A model generated the notes under the pieces. That model did no database searches and was not told the origin of the DNA. It saw nothing but the letters and a program-made list of their open reading frames with translations. Positions 1 to 41,324 of a DNA stretch of 64,000 nt are shown piece by piece; the first letter of the stretch is position 1, and every line of letters starts with the position of its first letter. Made by a program: the position numbers and the translations under genes. The DNA comes from Oenococcus sp. UCMA 16435 (GTDB taxonomy: Bacteria > Bacillota > Bacilli > Lactobacillales > Lactobacillaceae). The stretch is from the NCBI GenBank assembly GCA_004010835.2, contig CP030868.2:124001-188000 (forward strand), in the 5' to 3' direction.

Positions 1-686
<686 letters not shown>

Positions 687-994: not shown

Positions 995-2731
995 TTAATC
1001 AACTCCCAGCATATTTCTGTTCGACTGACCGGGAGCAACCATTGGATAAACCTGCTCAAGAGCAGGGATATCCGCTTCTACCAAAACACTTTCTTTTTTT
1101 GTGAAAACATCTGCCAATGTTTCACGCCAGTTTTGAGGAGCAAGTTTTAATCCTTTGATATCGTATGCATGCGCGAGCTTAATGAAATCCGGTTGTTCAT
1201 TGAAAACAGTTTGAGAATGTCTTTTTTTGTAGAACAGGTCTTGCCATTGGCGAACCATTCCAAGAGCTTTGTTGTTAAGCATGACTATCTTGATATCCAA
1301 CTTATATTCTCTGATCACATCGAGCTCCTCGATCGTCATTTGAATTCCGCCATCGCCAACAAACAGAACAACTTCTTTTTCAGGAACGGCTAGCTTAGCA
1401 CCAATCGCTGCCGGAAGACCGAATCCCATTGTTCCTAGCCCTCCACTGGTAATAATTTGATGTGGACGATTGAAAGGATAATATTGTGCTACCCACATTT
1501 GATGCTGGCCGACATCGGTGACGATTGTCGCATCACCGGCAGTCAGTCTGCCAACCTCTTCAATCACTGCTTGCGGCTTAATTTTCCCTTCCTCTTCAAT
1601 GTAGTGCTGAGGATGTTTTCGTTTCCAGGTATTCAATTGTCGAAGCCATGCATTGTGCTCTTTTAACTGAAAACTACTCGTGTTTTCCAACAGCCAGTTC
1701 AAAGCTTCCTTGCCGTCAGCAGCAACTGAAAAATTGGTGGCAACTACTTTTTTAAATTCAGAATCATCTATATCTATCTGTACTACACATGCTTTTTGCG
1801 CAAATTGAGAAGTATTAGTCGCTAAGCGATCATCAAATCGTGATCCGATATTTAAGAGAAAATCACATTTGCAGAACGCCAAGTTTGCTTGATAACTACC
1901 GTGCATTCCACCCATTCCTAGTGAAAGAGGATCAGAAGACGGCATCGCTCCTAGACTCAACAAAGTTGAAACAACAGGCAGTTTGTACTTATGAGCAAAA
2001 CTTCTGAGCTCTGGAACCGCTCCTGCAGCAATCACTCCGCCACCAACAAGAATTAGTGGTTTTTTAGCCCGCAACAGTGCATCACGAATCTGTAGCATAG
2101 TAGCTGCTGCCTTTTTCTGAATAAACACTTTTTTCTGCGAGGTATCTTCGACAATTGCACTATCGCACTTGGAATCTGATAACATGGCAATCACATCTTT
2201 AGGTAGGTCAACAACGACTGGCCCCTTTCTCCCACTACCGGAAATAGCGAATGCCTTGCTAACGACTTCTGACAATTCACTAACATCACGTACCTGATAA
2301 CTTTGTTTCGTGATAGCAGCCGTAATACTCAAAATGTTCACTTCCTGAAAAGCATCCGTTCCAATGGAAGAACAATTAACTTGACCCGTAAAAATAACTA
2401 GTGGAATTGAATCGGACATGGCGTCTGCAATTCCCGTTACTGTATTTGTTGCTCCCGGTCCAGAAGTCACAAATACGACTCCTGTTTTTCCAGTTGCTTT
2501 TGCGTATCCTTCGGCCGCGTGTACTGCTCCCTGCTCATGCCGCATAAGAATGTTGTTAAACGATTGACGATAAATGGCATCATAAAGTGGCAAAATTGCA
2601 CCCCCGGGATACCCGAATACTAGCTCGACTCCTTGAAATTTCAAGGAGTCGAGAAGTATATCTGCGCCATTTCGCAGATTGCCATTTTTTTCTTGTCCTC
2701 TGTTTTCATGTTCTGTAAAAATGAATTTCAC
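995..2731 (-). CDS. ilvB: Acetolactate synthase large (catalytic) subunit
   Basis: This ThDP-dependent enzyme condenses two pyruvates, or pyruvate plus 2-oxobutanoate, at the first common step of branched-chain amino acid synthesis. The 578-residue frame has the family segments VFGYPGGAILPLYDA, RHEQGAVHAAEGYA and SGPGATN, and a C-terminal ThDP motif GDGGIQMT followed by NN. The start is unclear. The in-frame GTG at 2731 is part of the Shine-Dalgarno AAGGAGGTG itself, an in-frame stop lies just upstream, and no in-frame ATG occurs for about 60 codons. An ATT at 2722-2720 sits 8 nt after GGAGG and may be the real start. Codons about 26-36 contain a perfect 30-bp palindrome. It lies downstream of a leader-peptide attenuator. 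Confidence 0.93.
   Translation of the reverse strand: MKFIFTEHENRGQEKNGNLRNGADILLDSLKFQGVELVFGYPGGAILPLYDAIYRQSFNNILMRHEQGAVHAAEGYAKATGKTGVVFVTSGPGATNTVTGIADAMSDSIPLVIFTGQVNCSSIGTDAFQEVNILSITAAITKQSYQVRDVSELSEVVSKAFAISGSGRKGPVVVDLPKDVIAMLSDSKCDSAIVEDTSQKKVFIQKKAAATMLQIRDALLRAKKPLILVGGGVIAAGAVPELRSFAHKYKLPVVSTLLSLGAMPSSDPLSLGMGGMHGSYQANLAFCKCDFLLNIGSRFDDRLATNTSQFAQKACVVQIDIDDSEFKKVVATNFSVAADGKEALNWLLENTSSFQLKEHNAWLRQLNTWKRKHPQHYIEEEGKIKPQAVIEEVGRLTAGDATIVTDVGQHQMWVAQYYPFNRPHQIITSGGLGTMGFGLPAAIGAKLAVPEKEVVLFVGDGGIQMTIEELDVIREYKLDIKIVMLNNKALGMVRQWQDLFYKKRHSQTVFNEQPDFIKLAHAYDIKGLKLAPQNWRETLADVFTKKESVLVEADIPALEQVYPMVAPGQSNRNMLGVD
2624..2653. repeat. Perfect 30-bp palindrome inside the 5' end of ilvB
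   Basis: Fifteen bases (CTCGACTCCTTGAAA) are followed directly by their exact reverse complement. The palindrome lies in coding sequence (residues reading LDSLKFQGVEL). In mRNA it could form a hairpin about 80 nt after the start and would hide an internal AAGGAG. Confidence 0.9.
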
Positions 2732-2844: not shown

Positions 2845-2877
2845 AAAATAAAAAGCATCCATCTTAACGATGGATGC
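2845..2877 (-). terminator. Attenuator terminator upstream of ilvB
   Basis: A 9-bp stem (GCATCCATC / GATGGATGC) with a 5-nt loop is followed on the minus strand by TTTTTATTTT. It lies after the Ile-rich leader peptide and before ilvB. A segment at 2883-2889 (minus GGTGGAT) can pair with the first arm and could act as an antiterminator. Confidence 0.85.
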
Positions 2878-3413: not shown

Positions 3414-3443
3414 TTGACAAAAAAGTTTACGGCGCTGTATAGT
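3414..3443 (+). promoter_or_regulatory. Sigma-A-type promoter for the transporter leader
   Basis: TTGACA at 3414-3419 and TATAGT at 3438-3443 are separated by 18 bp. The start of transcription would fall about 25 nt before the leader peptide ATG. Confidence 0.8.
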
Positions 3444-3474
3444 TGCAAACATATTGAAAAAAGAAGTAAACGAA

Positions 3475-3534
3475 ATGTCAATAGCCAATACAAACATCAA
3501 AATTATTATTATCTTCGGCACGATTATTAATTAA
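3475..3534 (+). CDS. Isoleucine-rich leader peptide of the MFS transporter (19 aa)
   Basis: The short frame MSIANTNIKIIIIFGTIIN has 8 isoleucines in 19 residues, including four consecutive Ile codons (ATT ATT ATT ATC) and a later ATT ATT. It lies between a strong promoter and an intrinsic terminator. The RNA after it has competing stems: GCGGGC (3536-3541) pairs with GTCCGC (3555-3560), and TGTCCGC (3554-3560) can instead pair with GCGGGCA (3566-3572). This is the layout of ribosome-mediated attenuation that senses charged tRNA-Ile. The ribosome-binding site (AAGAAGT) is weak. Confidence 0.8.
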   Translation: MSIANTNIKIIIIFGTIIN

Positions 3535-3584
3535 TGCGGGCTGCATTTTGAAGTGTCCGCGAATAGCGGGCAGTGTTGGTTAAT

Positions 3585-3620
3585 AAGCCAGAGGCTGTCA
3601 CACAGTTTCTGGCTTTTTTA
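3585..3620 (+). terminator. Attenuator terminator upstream of the MFS transporter
   Basis: The stem AAGCCAGA/TCTGGCTT has a loop of about 15 nt and is followed by TTTTTTATTT. It lies 85 bp before the transporter start and after the Ile-rich leader peptide. Confidence 0.85.
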
Positions 3621-3705
3621 TTTGCTTTATTTTGGAGGCATATTCATTACAAACAAAAACACAATTTGTTTTAAAAACAGTTTTTAAATATTTAGGAGAA
3701 TTTTT

Positions 3706-5028
3706 ATGGATAACACAAATAGTCTGAGAACCACTTTCGGAGATTCCCAGACTTTCAAACGAGATTCGATAAAAACAGTAATGCTGGCATCGATGATCGG
3801 AACAGCAATTGAATTTTTTGATTTTTATGCTTACGGGACAGCAGCTGCAGCTTATTTTCCCAAAGTTTTCTTTCCTGAAGTTACCCCGGCGATTGCAACA
3901 ATTTTGAGTTTGCTAACTTTCGGAATCGCTTTTATTGCACGTCCCATGGGGTCATTTATCTTTGGCCATTTTGGAGACAGAATTGGTCAAAAACAAACAT
4001 TGATTTTTTCACTTATGTTGATGGGAACATCAACTGTCTTGATTGGTATATTACCGAGTTATGCGACCTTAGGTCTCACATCCGTTATTCTTCTGTGTAC
4101 TTGTCGCTTTATCCAAGGCATAGGTCTTGGAGGAGAATGGTCAGGTGCAGCTTTGGTGGCTACTGAAAATGCACCTGTAAGTAAAAGAGCCTTGTATGGA
4201 GCTTTTCCAGAACTTGGAGCACCACTAGGCTTTTTTCTAAGTAATGGTTTGTTTTTCTTACTTGAATCATTTTTAACTTCTGCGCAAATGCTTAATTTTG
4301 GATGGCGAGTTCCTTTCTTAGCGTCTTCCGTTTTGGTTTTTGTTGGTTTTTGGGTACGCAAGCAGATGCAAGAAACACCACTATTTCGTTTGGCCCAGAA
4401 AAAAAACGAGGTCACCAAGTCGCCCTTAAAAGTTGTCTTTAAAACCAGTTGGCGGCAAATAATCCAAGGAACATTTATAGTCTCCGTTACCTACACTCTT
4501 TTTTATACTTTAGCAACATGGTCTTTAACATATGCGACGACAAAACTTGGTTTTACCAATAAAGAATATCTTTTCATGCTAATGGGCTCAATAACTATTT
4601 TTGCCTTATTTATTGTTTTGTCTTCATCTTTTGCCGATAAGTGGGGACGTAAACATATCCTGGTAGCCTCAGCAACGGCCTTAATTATTTTTGCTTTTCT
4701 TTTCCCTTATTTACTTCAAGGATACCGCAATTTTGTCAGTGTAACCTTGTTTCTCGTTATCGGTTTTATTTTAATGGGAATTGCTTTTGGTCCTGTCGGA
4801 GCTCTTTTGCCAGAACTATTCTCAACAAAAGTTCGCTATTCAGGCGCGGGAATTGCTTATAATTTAGCGGCAATCATTGGCGCAGCATTTGCACCCACGA
4901 TTGCAAGTTGGTTGGCTGAAAATTGGGGTACTTATTCTGTTGGTATATATTTGGGCATCATGGCAATTGCATGTTTGCTGTCTTTGCTAACAATTAAAGA
5001 TACTAAAACCGTTGATTTTTCGAAATGA
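3706..5028 (+). CDS. MFS transporter of the metabolite:H+ symporter (MHS) type
   Basis: This 440-residue polytopic membrane protein has about 12 hydrophobic segments. The N-terminal segment GTAIEFFDFYAYGTAAA and the loop motif GHFGDRIGQKQ are typical of the MHS subfamily (ProP, ShiA and YhjE relatives), which import organic acids or compatible solutes with protons. The start follows AGGAG with normal spacing. The gene sits behind an Ile leader-peptide attenuator, so it should be expressed when Ile-tRNA charging is low. I infer a substrate related to isoleucine, such as Ile itself, a keto acid or a precursor; the sequence alone does not fix it. Confidence 0.85.
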   Translation: MDNTNSLRTTFGDSQTFKRDSIKTVMLASMIGTAIEFFDFYAYGTAAAAYFPKVFFPEVTPAIATILSLLTFGIAFIARPMGSFIFGHFGDRIGQKQTLIFSLMLMGTSTVLIGILPSYATLGLTSVILLCTCRFIQGIGLGGEWSGAALVATENAPVSKRALYGAFPELGAPLGFFLSNGLFFLLESFLTSAQMLNFGWRVPFLASSVLVFVGFWVRKQMQETPLFRLAQKKNEVTKSPLKVVFKTSWRQIIQGTFIVSVTYTLFYTLATWSLTYATTKLGFTNKEYLFMLMGSITIFALFIVLSSSFADKWGRKHILVASATALIIFAFLFPYLLQGYRNFVSVTLFLVIGFILMGIAFGPVGALLPELFSTKVRYSGAGIAYNLAAIIGAAFAPTIASWLAENWGTYSVGIYLGIMAIACLLSLLTIKDTKTVDFSK

Positions 5029-5044
5029 ATTTGTTTAAAAACTA

Positions 5045-5073
5045 TTGACATTTGCTAAATTCAGTTTTAACAT
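5045..5073 (+). promoter_or_regulatory. Promoter of the Ile T-box transcript
   Basis: TTGACA at 5045-5050 and TAACAT at 5068-5073 are 17 bp apart, just upstream of the T-box leader. Confidence 0.7.
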
Positions 5074-5094
5074 AACAAACTATTAGAAATAAAT

Positions 5095-5371
5095 GAGAAC
5101 AGACGTTGATGAGGAAAAGTAGTTCATGACCGCGATTTAGCGAGTTTCGTTAGGTGTAAGGAAACATCGCGGTATTGAATGAAAATCACCTCGGAGTTAT
5201 GGCACGAAGATTACAGTAACTGTCATTGGGAGCAACCATTATCTTGCTAGCGTATCGAATGACAGTATTTATTCCGTACGTGATGAGTTATGTTATGTGA
5301 GTAACATAAAAATTTGGGTGGTAACACGATTAATCGTCCCGCAAAGTAGATTTTCTACTTTGCGGTTTTTT
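5095..5371 (+). promoter_or_regulatory. T-box riboswitch, isoleucine specifier (ATC)
   Basis: The T-box motif GGGTGGTAACACG is at about 5315-5327. It is followed by an 11-bp terminator stem (5339-5349 with 5355-5365) and a run of T. At the base of stem I, GAGG-AAAAGTA (5111-5121) faces ATC-A-CCTC (5185-5192), which makes ATC the specifier and tRNA-Ile the ligand. The His T-box in this window has the same layout (TAGA-AAAAGTA facing CAC-A-TCTA), which supports the reading. Uncharged tRNA-Ile should allow readthrough into the gene at 5418. Confidence 0.9.
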
Positions 5372-5417
5372 ATTACTCTCATTTATTTCTAAAAAACTAT
5401 TTAAGGAGATAATTTTT

Positions 5418-6218
5418 ATGTCAGAAACAAATGTGCTTTCCACAAAAAATGATACAGAAAAGAAAGTTGCTAATGATCTTTACCAAGCCTTGGTAAAAAA
5501 GCAACCGTTAAAAGCGGCCGACTATGAAAAGGAAGTTGCAGATTTTGATACAGCTTATCGAGTTCAACATGCCTTCACAGACCTCAAGAATGAAGCCGTA
5601 GGAGGATATAAAGTTAGTTTAACCTCTAAAGAAACACAAAAGATGTTTGATTCCGATTCGCCGTTTTACGGTGCCGAAACAAGCAGTGCTTGGTTAAAAA
5701 ATCATACTAGTCTTCAACTCAGTGATTTGATGGACCCCTTACTTGAAGTCGAGATGGTTTTCACTGCTAAAGAAACGCTACTAGCAACTGATTCACTAAA
5801 TGAATTACTTAATAAGGTTACTGTTTCGGCGGGTGTCGAACTTCCTGATTCACGTTTTAAAGATTGGTTTCCAAGCCTGTCAAAATATTTGGTTGTTGCC
5901 GATGGAGCCGTAGGTGGCCGTGTTGTCTACACTGAACCAACTAATGATAAAGTCAGTGTTGATGATTTAGCAACTGTCACCTGCACTTTAACTCTTAATG
6001 GCAAAGAACTTGGAACTGGTAAATCATCCGAAGTTTTGGGTAATCCATTGAATTCATTACAGTGGTTGGTTAAGAAATTATCCGAACAAGGCGTTGCCTA
6101 TCCAAAGGGTACTAAAGTTTCAAGCGGTACCTTCCTCTTGCCACCACATTTACAAAAAGGTCATTATGTCGCTCATTTTGATAAATACTTTGATGATGTA
6201 ACATTAGAGGTTAAGTAG
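5418..6218 (+). CDS. 2-keto-4-pentenoate hydratase / fumarylacetoacetase-family enzyme
   Basis: The 266 residues match the length of the MhpD/DmpH hydratase-decarboxylase family. Likely divalent-metal ligands are visible as LEVEM near residue 115 and GVELPDSRF near residue 142, which correspond to the Glu-x-Glu and later Glu of the fold. Relatives hydrate 2-hydroxy-dienoates or decarboxylate oxalocrotonate and oxaloacetate-like acids. No aromatic degradation genes are nearby. The strong AAGGAG start lies directly behind an Ile T-box, which is an unusual context and suggests a role in making or salvaging an isoleucine precursor. That role is inference. Confidence 0.8.
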   Translation: MSETNVLSTKNDTEKKVANDLYQALVKKQPLKAADYEKEVADFDTAYRVQHAFTDLKNEAVGGYKVSLTSKETQKMFDSDSPFYGAETSSAWLKNHTSLQLSDLMDPLLEVEMVFTAKETLLATDSLNELLNKVTVSAGVELPDSRFKDWFPSLSKYLVVADGAVGGRVVYTEPTNDKVSVDDLATVTCTLTLNGKELGTGKSSEVLGNPLNSLQWLVKKLSEQGVAYPKGTKVSSGTFLLPPHLQKGHYVAHFDKYFDDVTLEVK

Positions 6219-6277: not shown

Positions 6278-7728
6278 CTATTTACTGAGAAAATCCTCAG
6301 CTGCTTCTCCTGCAAGTCTTCCATAATTCCACGCAAAAGCACAGCTTAAACCCTCAATTGTTGGATAAGAATCACCGTACATGCCACCTGCTGCGGTGTT
6401 GCCTGCCGCAAATGCACCTGGGATAGCTTGATTATTAGGTGACAATACATTAAATTTTTCGTCAACAGCAACTCCATCGATAGTTCCTAGCGAAGTCGAA
6501 CAGGCTTTAATTGCATAGAAGAGTTCTTGGCCAACCGAAAATTTCATAAACTTATCTGCTTTATACAAATCGGTGTCTTTGCCAGTCGCGACTAAAGCAT
6601 TGTAATTTTTAACAGTTTCGTTCAAATTATTTATCAGTACCATCATTTTTTTGGATAAATCGATTAAGTTATCAGCTTTCCATGCAGTGTTTTCATTGAT
6701 TGCTTCCGCCAAATCAGAATTGATTTTTGCAAAGGGACCAATTTTATGAGTCATAGGCTTATGCTGCAATGTTTTAAAAGTTCTTTCGAATGAATCAGTC
6801 CAATTTAAGTTATTTTCTTTTAAATAATCGATAATTTTTTGATCAAGTAAAAAGTAATAATAACCGCCTGCGACATAAGTTGCATTCCCCCAGAGTGCAA
6901 AATCATAACAAACGTCCTCATTTGTGAAACGTTTCCCACTGCTGTCCACCCAGAGAAATGGAACATTTGTTAGCGAAAAAATAGTTTCATTATGCTATTT
7001 GGGGGTTCTTGGTGGATACAACAGATACAGCATGATTTTCAAATAAAGGTGGTTGGCTGATATGTCGGCACCAATCTTCGCCAGCATTTCAATTCCATCA
7101 CCGGTTGCTTTTCTTTCCCCCATACTGTAAAAGTTATTGAAATTAATTGTCAGATGCTGTTTGACCAATTTTTCGTTTCCAATAAATCCACCATCAGCAA
7201 TAATTATCACTTGGCATTCAATAGTTTCTTCAGTACCATTCCGAATAACTTGGATTCCTATTATTTGACCATTTTCCATCAGAATTTTTTTACCGGCAGT
7301 TTTGGTTAATAACCGGCTGCCCTTAGCTTGAAAATATTGAATTAGTTTATTAAAGCCACTGAATTTATCAATGTATTGGTGATAAGTTCGTGGCTTTTTT
7401 TGATGAACTTCTTGAGTGTTGTTAACCAACTCTGTTTGCAGGCCGTGTTGATCGAGCCAGTCAATTGTATCAGCTGATTTTTCCAAGATCGCCTGGATAT
7501 TCGGGAATTAGACCCGTGATGGGTATAATCGACCAGTTCCTTGTAAGCATCGGCGACAGTATAATCAATTTCCGTTTGATACTTGCTTCCAACAGCGAAC
7601 AATCCTTGGGCACCAAACATACTAGCGCCCTTTTCAAGTAAAATAATCCGGTAACTTTTGTCCACAAGCGTCAAAGCAGCTCCAATCCCAGCTGCTCCGG
7701 ATCCAACAACAACAATTGTTTTTAACAT
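6278..7728 (-). pseudogene. FAD-dependent fumarate reductase-like flavoprotein, broken
   Basis: Three collinear pieces make up one FAD_binding_2 flavoprotein. The N-terminal piece starts at ATG 7728 (GGAGG 8 nt upstream) and has the FAD motif VVVGSGAAGIGAALTL. Near 7505 the frame slips; restoring one A in CCCGAATATCC rejoins it to EKSADTIDWL. A second lesion is an in-frame TAG at 6995-6997, after which the same frame continues as NVPFLWVDSSGKRFTNE. The C-terminal piece has the conserved GGMYGDSYPTIEGLS and ends normally. Relatives reduce fumarate or similar enoates in the cytoplasm. Two lesions make a working product unlikely. Confidence 0.85.
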
Positions 7729-7761
7729 ATGCATAGCCTCCAAGATTTTTAATTTAAACAA

Positions 7762-8972: not shown

Positions 8973-9440
8973 TTACTTGATTAATTGTCTCTCAAGATAA
9001 ATTAAGTCCAGGACGCCTCGTGCACAATCGGCACCTTTATTACCAGCTTTTCCACCTGCCCTATTAATAGCCTGATCAAGTGTATTAGTTGTAAGAACAC
9101 CGAACATAACCGGAACCGGCCCATTTAAAGATTGGCTGGCAATTCCATTAGCAGTTTCTTCACACACATAATCATAATGTGAAGTTTCCCCACGAATCAC
9201 AGCTCCTAAGGCGATAATACCATCAAATTTTTTTGTTTCTGCCATTTTTTTAACAATCCGGGGAATTTCCATTGCTCCCGGAACCCAGGCAACTGTAATA
9301 TCACTCTTGTTGACCGAATATTTAAGCAATTCGCTCTCGCTTCCCTGAAGCAATTTGTTCGTCACCAGTTCGTTAAAGCGAGCAACAACAATACCAATTT
9401 TGAGGCCTTGACCCGTTATCGTCCCATTAATTTCAACCAT
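8973..9440 (-). CDS. ribH: 6,7-dimethyl-8-ribityllumazine synthase
   Basis: RibH condenses the ribityl-aminouracil with dihydroxybutanone phosphate to give lumazine, the direct riboflavin precursor. Its 155 residues are the usual length. Visible family segments are [26 protein letters not shown] and [15 protein letters not shown], whose His is the catalytic residue. It is the last gene of the rib operon. The ATG directly follows the ribBA stop (TAAATG) and AAGGAGG is upstream, so the two are translationally coupled. The operon terminator lies downstream. Confidence 0.96.
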
Positions 9441-41032: not shown

Positions 41033-41282
41033 AAAAACGCCCTCTTAGCAAGTTTGCTAAAAGGACGTTTTCACGTGGTTCCACCTTATTTCGTTCGCTG
41101 CTCACACAGCGAACCTCATGTTGACAAAAAGTCAACTTGGATAACGAAACCAATTCGGCTAGGGCTAATACAAGCAGTTCACCCTAGCGGTTCATAGATG
41201 TGTTTTCATTAAGTCTATCTGCCCGATTCGCAGCTACTCGGACTCTCTGGATGAGGAAAACTTAATTACTTTTTCTAATCAC
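41033..41282 (-). promoter_or_regulatory. T-box riboswitch, histidine specifier (CAC)
   Basis: On the minus strand the T-box motif AAGGTGGAACCACG is at 41074-41087, followed by a terminator stem (41033-41073, AAACGTCCTTTTAGCAA with its complement) and a T run. At the base of stem I, TAGA-AAAAGTA (41277 down) faces CAC-A-TCTA, with the specifier CAC at 41202-41200. CAC is a His codon, matching the operon it controls. Confidence 0.93.
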
Positions 41283-41324
41283 AACCGTTTATTAAAATTT
41301 GATTAGTTATTTAATTTAATGTTT

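Follow-up and report, generated by a model that had tools for sequence, protein, structure and literature searches.

The window, a stretch of 64,000 nucleotides from contig CP030868.2 of Oenococcus sp. UCMA 16435, carries an MHS-type transporter gene followed by the gene of a FAH-superfamily enzyme (here called the hydratase, after its database name), and each is preceded by a leader that reads isoleucine (Ile): a leader-peptide attenuator in the first case, a T-box with an ATC specifier in the second. That Ile controls both genes is close to certain, and a role for the hydratase in branched-chain oxo acid metabolism is very likely; the database label, which places the enzyme in aromatic degradation, is probably wrong, and the enzyme probably belongs to Ile metabolism. 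The more specific proposal is that it is a metal-dependent C3-epimerase of 3-methyl-2-oxopentanoate (KMV), the Ile oxo acid, a substrate and activity to which we would give somewhat less than even odds. More broadly, it may be part of a so far unrecognized pathway by which lactic acid bacteria and their relatives salvage Ile, and in which the MHS transporter imports racemic KMV and the FAH-fold enzyme epimerises C3 for the branched-chain amino acid aminotransferase (BCAT). Such a pathway, whose probability we put at about one in three, would make the wrong-handed oxo acid, the corresponding hydroxy acid, and L-allo-Ile usable with or without the ilv pathway.

The T-box upstream of the hydratase gene scores 111.1 bits against the Rfam model RF00230, whose gathering score is 93. 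Comparison was extended to 100 hydratase loci: 80 named loci (the top 80 among 226), 19 of 20 further loci, the distant paralogue of L237 being left out, and the window itself. An ATC T-box is found at 86 of the 100, of which 84 could be aligned and all read ATC (the remaining two, at L229 and L231, were recognized by pattern), and in another six loci an Ile-rich leader peptide replaces the T-box (L070, L226, L227, L233, L234, and L241), so that an Ile leader of either type is present at 92 of the 100. These T-boxes were identified from their alignment and sequence pattern. The Rfam model itself was run on six genomes and in every one of them places a T-box immediately 5' of the hydratase gene, two of the six scoring above the gathering score. 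At L022 the upstream region is cut off by the contig end, and no leader was detected at L239 and L242, where the hydratase genes are broken. Because several loci are near copies of one another (strains of Apilactobacillus kunkeei; L077 and L238), these counts are of loci and not of independent events. The peptide-leader type needs two changes on the protein tree, a single origin being less likely. As read from the leaders, the hydratase would be made when charged tRNA-Ile runs short. The RNA architecture and specifier logic are those of the Ile T-boxes and leader attenuators described in Gram-positive bacteria, unlike the target gene, as the word 'hydratase' is absent from the main text of that study (PMC2494555).

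The T-box regulons that were read by eye contain no other recognized Ile-specified enzyme (26 of 26 matches in G088, 11 of 14 in G006, a genome of the window's genus, and 11 of 20 in G012), and the Ile-specified genes besides the hydratase are ileS and a peptide-binding protein, both in G088. By the same kind of reading, an Ile specifier stands at two of the 17 T-box matches in the window's own genome, those of ileS (also named by eye) and of the hydratase. The G088 genome also has three tandem T-boxes, whose specifier reads like CGT (Arg), before a gene reading like an amino acid ABC transporter (L197, C1:102026-102768). Two further loci of the window's genus, L025 of Oenococcus oeni DSM 20252 and L242 of G003, have broken hydratase genes, with the ATC T-box kept in L025; a search of G002 and G003 for ilvC and ilvD matches found none.

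Operon partners of the hydratase outside the Lactobacillaceae point in the same direction. An order-level search returned matches at E 1e-20 or better in 48 of 395 genomes, 29 of them outside the family, and loci were fetched from 20 of these 29. In 11 of the 20 a co-oriented BCAT gene lies immediately upstream (in L278 it is split over two frames), in one of two arrangements: BCAT, an L-2-hydroxyisocaproate dehydrogenase (HicDH)-like gene, and the hydratase in seven cases, and BCAT, the hydratase, and a Liv-type branched-chain amino acid binding protein in the other four, the gene families having been profiled for one example of each. The HicDH-like protein of L281, from the outside operons, and that of L230, which follows a Lactobacillaceae hydratase, score 398 and 368 bits against 1hyh, versus 184 and 173 bits for the best lactate dehydrogenase. 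No leader was seen within 500 bases of the hydratase in the outside loci; leaders were found before the first gene of the operon, and 10 of the 11 BCAT operons carry an Ile T-box or an Ile leader there. An ATC T-box precedes BCAT in six of the seven HicDH-type operons. Five of these (L281, L282, L284, L287, and L291) were recovered with the Rfam model, with ATC at the specifier position and scores of 66.4-74.5 bits (E 3e-12 or better) that are below the gathering score, and the sixth (L283) by pattern. All four Liv-type operons have an Ile-rich leader peptide (for instance, MKTFSTHTFKLATIISIIR and MMNLNTAQFNTAIIISIIG) and a terminator before BCAT. The finding of these leaders slightly raised the likelihood of the epimerase proposal and slightly lowered that of a route through 2-oxobutanoate. 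Within the Lactobacillaceae, one Ile leader in L226 and in L227 serves three consecutive genes, those for a PTS_EIIC_2 membrane protein, BCAT, and the hydratase, the last being incomplete in L227.

Several other arrangements were seen in these loci. In L073 a T-box whose specifier, near 1981 on the minus strand, was read by eye as a Leu-like CTC lies 5' of a PTS_EIIC_2 gene, a hint that the PTS_EIIC_2 proteins sharing operons with BCAT and the hydratase carry branched-chain compounds. The Ile-leader regions before BCAT in L276 (2744-2923) and L278 (5970-6151, minus strand) match RF02863, Enterococcus sRNA (small RNA) 2410, with 47.2 and 48.9 against a gathering score of 61, which raises the possibility that this 'sRNA' is the leader of an amino acid attenuator. 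The distant paralogue of L237 (G060 C1:316000-328000) is clustered with class IV aminotransferase, ketopantoate reductase-like, zinc alcohol dehydrogenase, and MFS genes, and in L236 the hydratase is followed by genes for an aminotransferase and for a protein like ketopantoate reductase.

The distribution of the gene was followed in a sample of 201 Lactobacillaceae genomes, with broken copies (G002, G003, G152, and others) counted as present. The hydratase was found in 88 genomes, ilvD in 29, ilvC in 23, the MHS gene in 26, and BCAT (TIGR01123) in 116, two of these below the cut-off. The hydratase is present in 28 of the 29 ilvD genomes (p 1e-10), 22 of the 23 ilvC genomes, and 22 of the 26 MHS genomes (p 8e-6), and BCAT occurs in 72 of the 88 hydratase genomes versus 44 of the 113 others (p 8e-10). 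Conversely, an ilvD match is absent from 60 of the 88 hydratase genomes and an ilvC match from 66. The preliminary description of this DNA had treated transporter and hydratase as a pair to be sought with their leaders in other genomes, and the two do occur in the same genomes, as Ile leaders do elsewhere. Their adjacency is another matter: the window is the only one of 149 stretches checked that holds both genes, and a fixed MHS-hydratase operon was rejected on that count (G018 has them on the same contig, with about 12 kb between them).

The protein itself fits its name poorly. Its best NCBIfam match, TIGR03220, scores 91.3 bits, far under the cut-off of 408.8; the other hydratase equivalogs (74.3 versus 351.5 and 69.2 versus 350) and the 4-oxalocrotonate decarboxylase model TIGR03218 (68.8 versus 350.55) are likewise not reached. 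A search of the PDB matched Escherichia coli MhpD (2wqt) at E 1.8e-17, and the AlphaFold model (predicted local distance difference test score, pLDDT, 94.1) has the FAH-like fold of the hydratase/decarboxylase branch, superposing on HpcG, MhpD, and NahK with template modelling scores (TM) of 0.84-0.89, the match to 2eb6 having E 4.8e-24 and TM 0.88. MhpD and HpcG share with the window protein the fold, the metal-binding Glu triad, and the Lys, and Lys65, Glu110, Glu112, and Glu141 are invariant in all 38 rows of the alignment. What differs is identity (23-24% in the structural alignment) and one site: the Asp of the hydratase motif P-D-Y/F-G is replaced in all 38 rows, which read P-L/F-Y/F-G (Phe83 in the window protein), and is absent, with Leu or Phe in its stead, from all 109 readable sequences. 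The hydratase name is therefore doubtful. NahK, a 4-oxalocrotonate decarboxylase, resembles the window protein in fold (TM 0.84-0.85) and, reading PIYG, is likewise hydrophobic where hydratases have the Asp; it differs in that the window protein falls under the TIGR03218 cut-off.

The proposed reaction joins these observations. Spontaneous enolisation gives rise to racemic KMV and allo-Ile. The enzyme would bind KMV through Mg2+ or Mn2+ held by Glu110, Glu112, and Glu141 and, with Lys65, would remove and return the proton at C3, converting (R)-KMV to (S)-KMV, which BCAT would then turn into L-Ile. In concert with BCAT, and in some genomes with a hydroxy acid dehydrogenase, racemic KMV, L-allo-Ile, and 2-hydroxy-3-methylpentanoate would become usable as sources of Ile, and the Ile-attenuated MHS transporter would import KMV or a relative. 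Three considerations favor this scheme. Control by Ile alone would be accounted for, since a stereocentre at C3 exists in the oxo acid of Ile and in neither of those of Leu and Val. The oxo acids on which BCAT and HicDH act are saturated and offer nothing for a hydratase to work on, and the genes for both sit behind Ile leaders, which we read as induction on Ile shortage. Finally, a metal-dependent enzyme of the FAH fold that enolises KMV would exchange or invert C3. There is precedent for enolisation of a 2-oxo acid in the FAH-family oxaloacetate tautomerases of the FAHD1 type (PMC10825186, PMC12176266), which differ in substrate and belong to another branch of the fold family (TM 0.55-0.59). 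A precedent for the pairing comes from Streptomyces, where an aminotransferase and an isomerase invert the beta-carbon of Ile, supplying L-allo-Ile to the desotamide and marfomycin pathways (PMC7459860), in the service of antibiotic synthesis and not of a response to Ile starvation. BCAT is likewise the partner gene of the hydratase in the 11 outside loci and in L226 and L227. The Streptomyces isomerase presumably has a fold unlike FAH. Among titles and abstract openings, no literature linking this hydratase-family enzyme to Ile was found, and one copy from L. plantarum is listed in an expression table (PMC9019972).

Of the alternatives, the one that survives best is a general keto-enol tautomerase or decarboxylase, similar to FAHD1, that repairs or removes branched-chain 2-oxo acids and has no stereochemical role. 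It shares with the epimerase proposal the fold family, the core residues, and the operons with BCAT and HicDH-like genes, and the hydrophobic residue after Pro, as in NahK, is in its favor. We nevertheless consider it unlikely, as it leaves control by Ile rather than by Leu or Val unexplained, decarboxylation would need a beta-carboxylate, which simple 2-oxo acids lack, and induction on Ile starvation suits the making of Ile and not the removal of its oxo acid. An aldol bypass has a slim chance: the enzyme would dehydrate 4-hydroxy-3-methyl-2-oxopentanoate, formed from acetaldehyde and 2-oxobutanoate, and a reductase would yield KMV, giving Ile without IlvBCD. Such a step resembles the known hydratase reaction in reverse, and the gene does occur in many genomes without ilvC or ilvD, but the Asp of hydratases is missing from all 109 readable sequences, and no ene-reductase beside the gene was recognized by eye in the open reading frame lists read for Lactobacillaceae and outside loci. 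None of the 201 genomes reaches the curated cut-off for the meta-cleavage aldolase TIGR03217, although none of 14 control genomes reaches it either.

Slimmer still is the chance of the route first suggested for this DNA, in which the enzyme would feed the ilv pathway with 2-oxobutanoate made from a precursor, an acid taken up by the transporter. The company that the hydratase keeps with ilvD and ilvC speaks for it, as does the divergent placement of MHS and ilvB in the window, G192, G212, and G170. Against it stand the operons that combine BCAT and HicDH-like genes under Ile leaders, and ilvA, whose absence had been offered as a check, is present next to ilvC in the window's own genome; a missing ilvA was accordingly rejected. 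Since the known path to Ile is closed without ilvD, the 60 hydratase genomes with no ilvD match show that the route cannot be the general function. Thus, of the earlier suggestion of an Ile supply route, Ile supply or salvage stands as the best reading, and conversion to 2-oxobutanoate does not. Lastly, a true 2-keto-4-pentenoate hydratase of aromatic meta-cleavage, its Ile control incidental, is scarcely credible, for it has the database names and the nearest solved structures (MhpD and HpcG) on its side and, against it, scores that reach no equivalog cut-off, the missing Asp, and the Ile leaders at 92 of 100 loci. The search for its partner aldolase TIGR03217 adds little, given that no control genome passes the cut-off.

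The epimerase and salvage proposal also has to contend with a number of observations that weigh against it. Neither type of leader lies directly upstream of the hydratase in L058, L068, and L082 (Streptococcus) or in L228 and L235; L286 has BCAT, and no T-box was detected there with the Rfam model or by pattern; and nine of the 20 outside loci have neither a BCAT neighbor nor a T-box. In the Lactobacillaceae the hydratase lies, as far as the loci were read, mostly amid unrelated genes, and 16 of the 88 hydratase genomes have no TIGR01123 match and would need another aminotransferase. The MHS gene is absent from 66 of the 88. The p values for co-occurrence ignore shared descent and gene transfer, and the helices of the MHS attenuator were read from the same alignment in which their pairs were counted. 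The site of the missing Asp corresponds to Asp79 of HpcG, which is probably catalytic.

The MHS gene scores 402.2 bits against TIGR00883, under the curated cut-off of 443.45, and exceeds the cut-offs of the Pfam profiles Sugar_tr and MFS_1. Its orthologues (at least 600 bits) number 27 genes in 26 of the 201 genomes, and an Ile-rich leader was recognized by eye at 23 of the 27; none was accepted at L131 (the second MHS copy of G221), L145 and L146 (both near contig ends), or L154. A strict test for at least four Ile within six codons upstream is passed by 19 of the 27 genes, more than chance would give: 37 of 1080 dinucleotide shuffles pass it, as do, among the regions upstream of the other genes at these loci, 27 of 273. 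The test admits L131, a weak candidate not counted as a leader, and misses the eye-read leaders of L142, L147, L149, L152, and L153. Both Ile leaders, the attenuator before MHS and the ATC T-box before the hydratase, had been read correctly in the preliminary description, as had the adjoining ilvB, which has an Ile-rich leader of its own.

Helix covariation was computed on the 18 of the 23 leaders that could be aligned over their length. Paired cells and pairs with two-sided changes amount to 97.6% and 4 of 7 for helix 2:3, 94.4% and 2 of 6 for helix 1:2, 88.8% and 4 of 8 for the antiterminator, and 89.6% and 8 of 11 for the terminator hairpin. For the resting structure (2:3 and terminator) 92.8% of cells are paired and 12 of 18 pairs show two-sided changes, a level reached by none of 500 shuffles; its number of pair types does not stand out, being equalled in 316 of 500. 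In the alternative structure (1:2 and antiterminator) 91.2% of cells are paired and two-sided changes occur in 6 of 14 pairs, for which 16 of 500 shuffles are as high; no shuffle of 500 equals its changed cells and covariation score, and 52 of 500 do so for pair types. The leader thus has the marks of a peptide-type transcription attenuator, namely a codon-rich leader, mutually exclusive helices, and a terminator with a U-run. Judging from this anatomy, a ribosome that reaches the stop codon when Ile is plentiful would cover segment 1 and leave the 2:3 and terminator form, and one that stalls on Ile codons when Ile is short would allow 1:2 to form and free segment 3 to open the terminator. The transporter probably imports KMV or a relative; other oxo acids, hydroxy acids, and Ile as such are further candidate substrates. 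In L152 the MHS gene lies 565 bases from a divergent BCAT gene, and in L149 about 2.4 kb from one.

The layout of the window is given in Table 1. An ilvD match lies elsewhere in the genome, as does BCAT (G000 C1:1879631), which is not adjacent to the hydratase here. The window hydratase groups with Loigolactobacillus on the protein tree (100/96), and the MHS protein is 87% identical to that of G192, a member of another genus, which together suggest gene transfer. Beside the hydratase, at 6278-7761 on the minus strand, lies a gene resembling a flavin adenine dinucleotide (FAD)-dependent reductase, with a vinylphenol reductase family match below the cut-off; it is spread over several frames and appears broken. 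A second strong T-box (119 bits) is found at 41058-41291 on the minus strand, 5' of a gene reading like hisZ. Downstream of ilvA in L098, with an ABC ATPase-like gene in between, is a Rid-family gene (9005-9391, minus strand; TIGR00004 159 bits, cut-off 106).

Table 1. Features in and next to the window (window positions, unless a locus is named)
Feature	Position	Strand	Remarks
Promoter-like -35, TTGACA	3414-3419	+	5' of Ile leader; consensus match only
Promoter-like -10, TATAGT	3438-3443	+	5' of Ile leader; consensus match only
Ile leader-peptide attenuator, whole	3475-3619	+	Precedes MHS-type transporter
Ile leader peptide MSIANTNIKIIIIFGTIIN, 19 residues, 8 Ile	3475-3534	+	Read from sequence
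Attenuator segments 1 / 2 / 3	3536-3541 / 3554-3560 / 3566-3572	+	Pair 1:2 or 2:3
Antiterminator	3571-3579 with 3588-3597	+	Pairs with 5' arm of terminator
Intrinsic terminator hairpin and T-run of attenuator	3587-3613 and 3614-3619	+	
MHS-type MFS transporter, 440 aa	3706-5028	+	TIGR00883, Sugar_tr, and MFS_1 profile matches
Ile T-box leader	5097-5344	+	Rfam RF00230; ATC specifier at 5185-5187
T-box terminator hairpin and T-run	5339-5371	+	
FAH-superfamily hydratase/decarboxylase-like enzyme, 266 aa	5418-6218	+	Profile and structure matches
Ile-rich leader peptide of ilvB, 7 Ile of 37	3059-2946	-	Read from sequence
Terminator hairpin between leader and ilvB	2855-2877	-	Read from sequence
ilvB, acetolactate synthase large subunit	995-2731	-	TIGR00118 711 bits, above cut-off
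ilvC	1-665	-	Runs past window edge
ilvA	L098 10266-11597	-	Outside window, directly downstream of ilvC; NF006390 635 bits, cut-off 421

A gene that is present in 88 of 201 sampled genomes of the family is named for aromatic degradation, and its control and operon partners point to Ile. If the epimerase proposal is true, it would explain a possible use of the racemised oxo acid and of allo-Ile by these bacteria, and would matter for predicting auxotrophy for branched-chain amino acids and for the branched-chain flavor chemistry of fermented foods. The FAH fold would, in that event, take on a stereochemical role within core amino acid metabolism.

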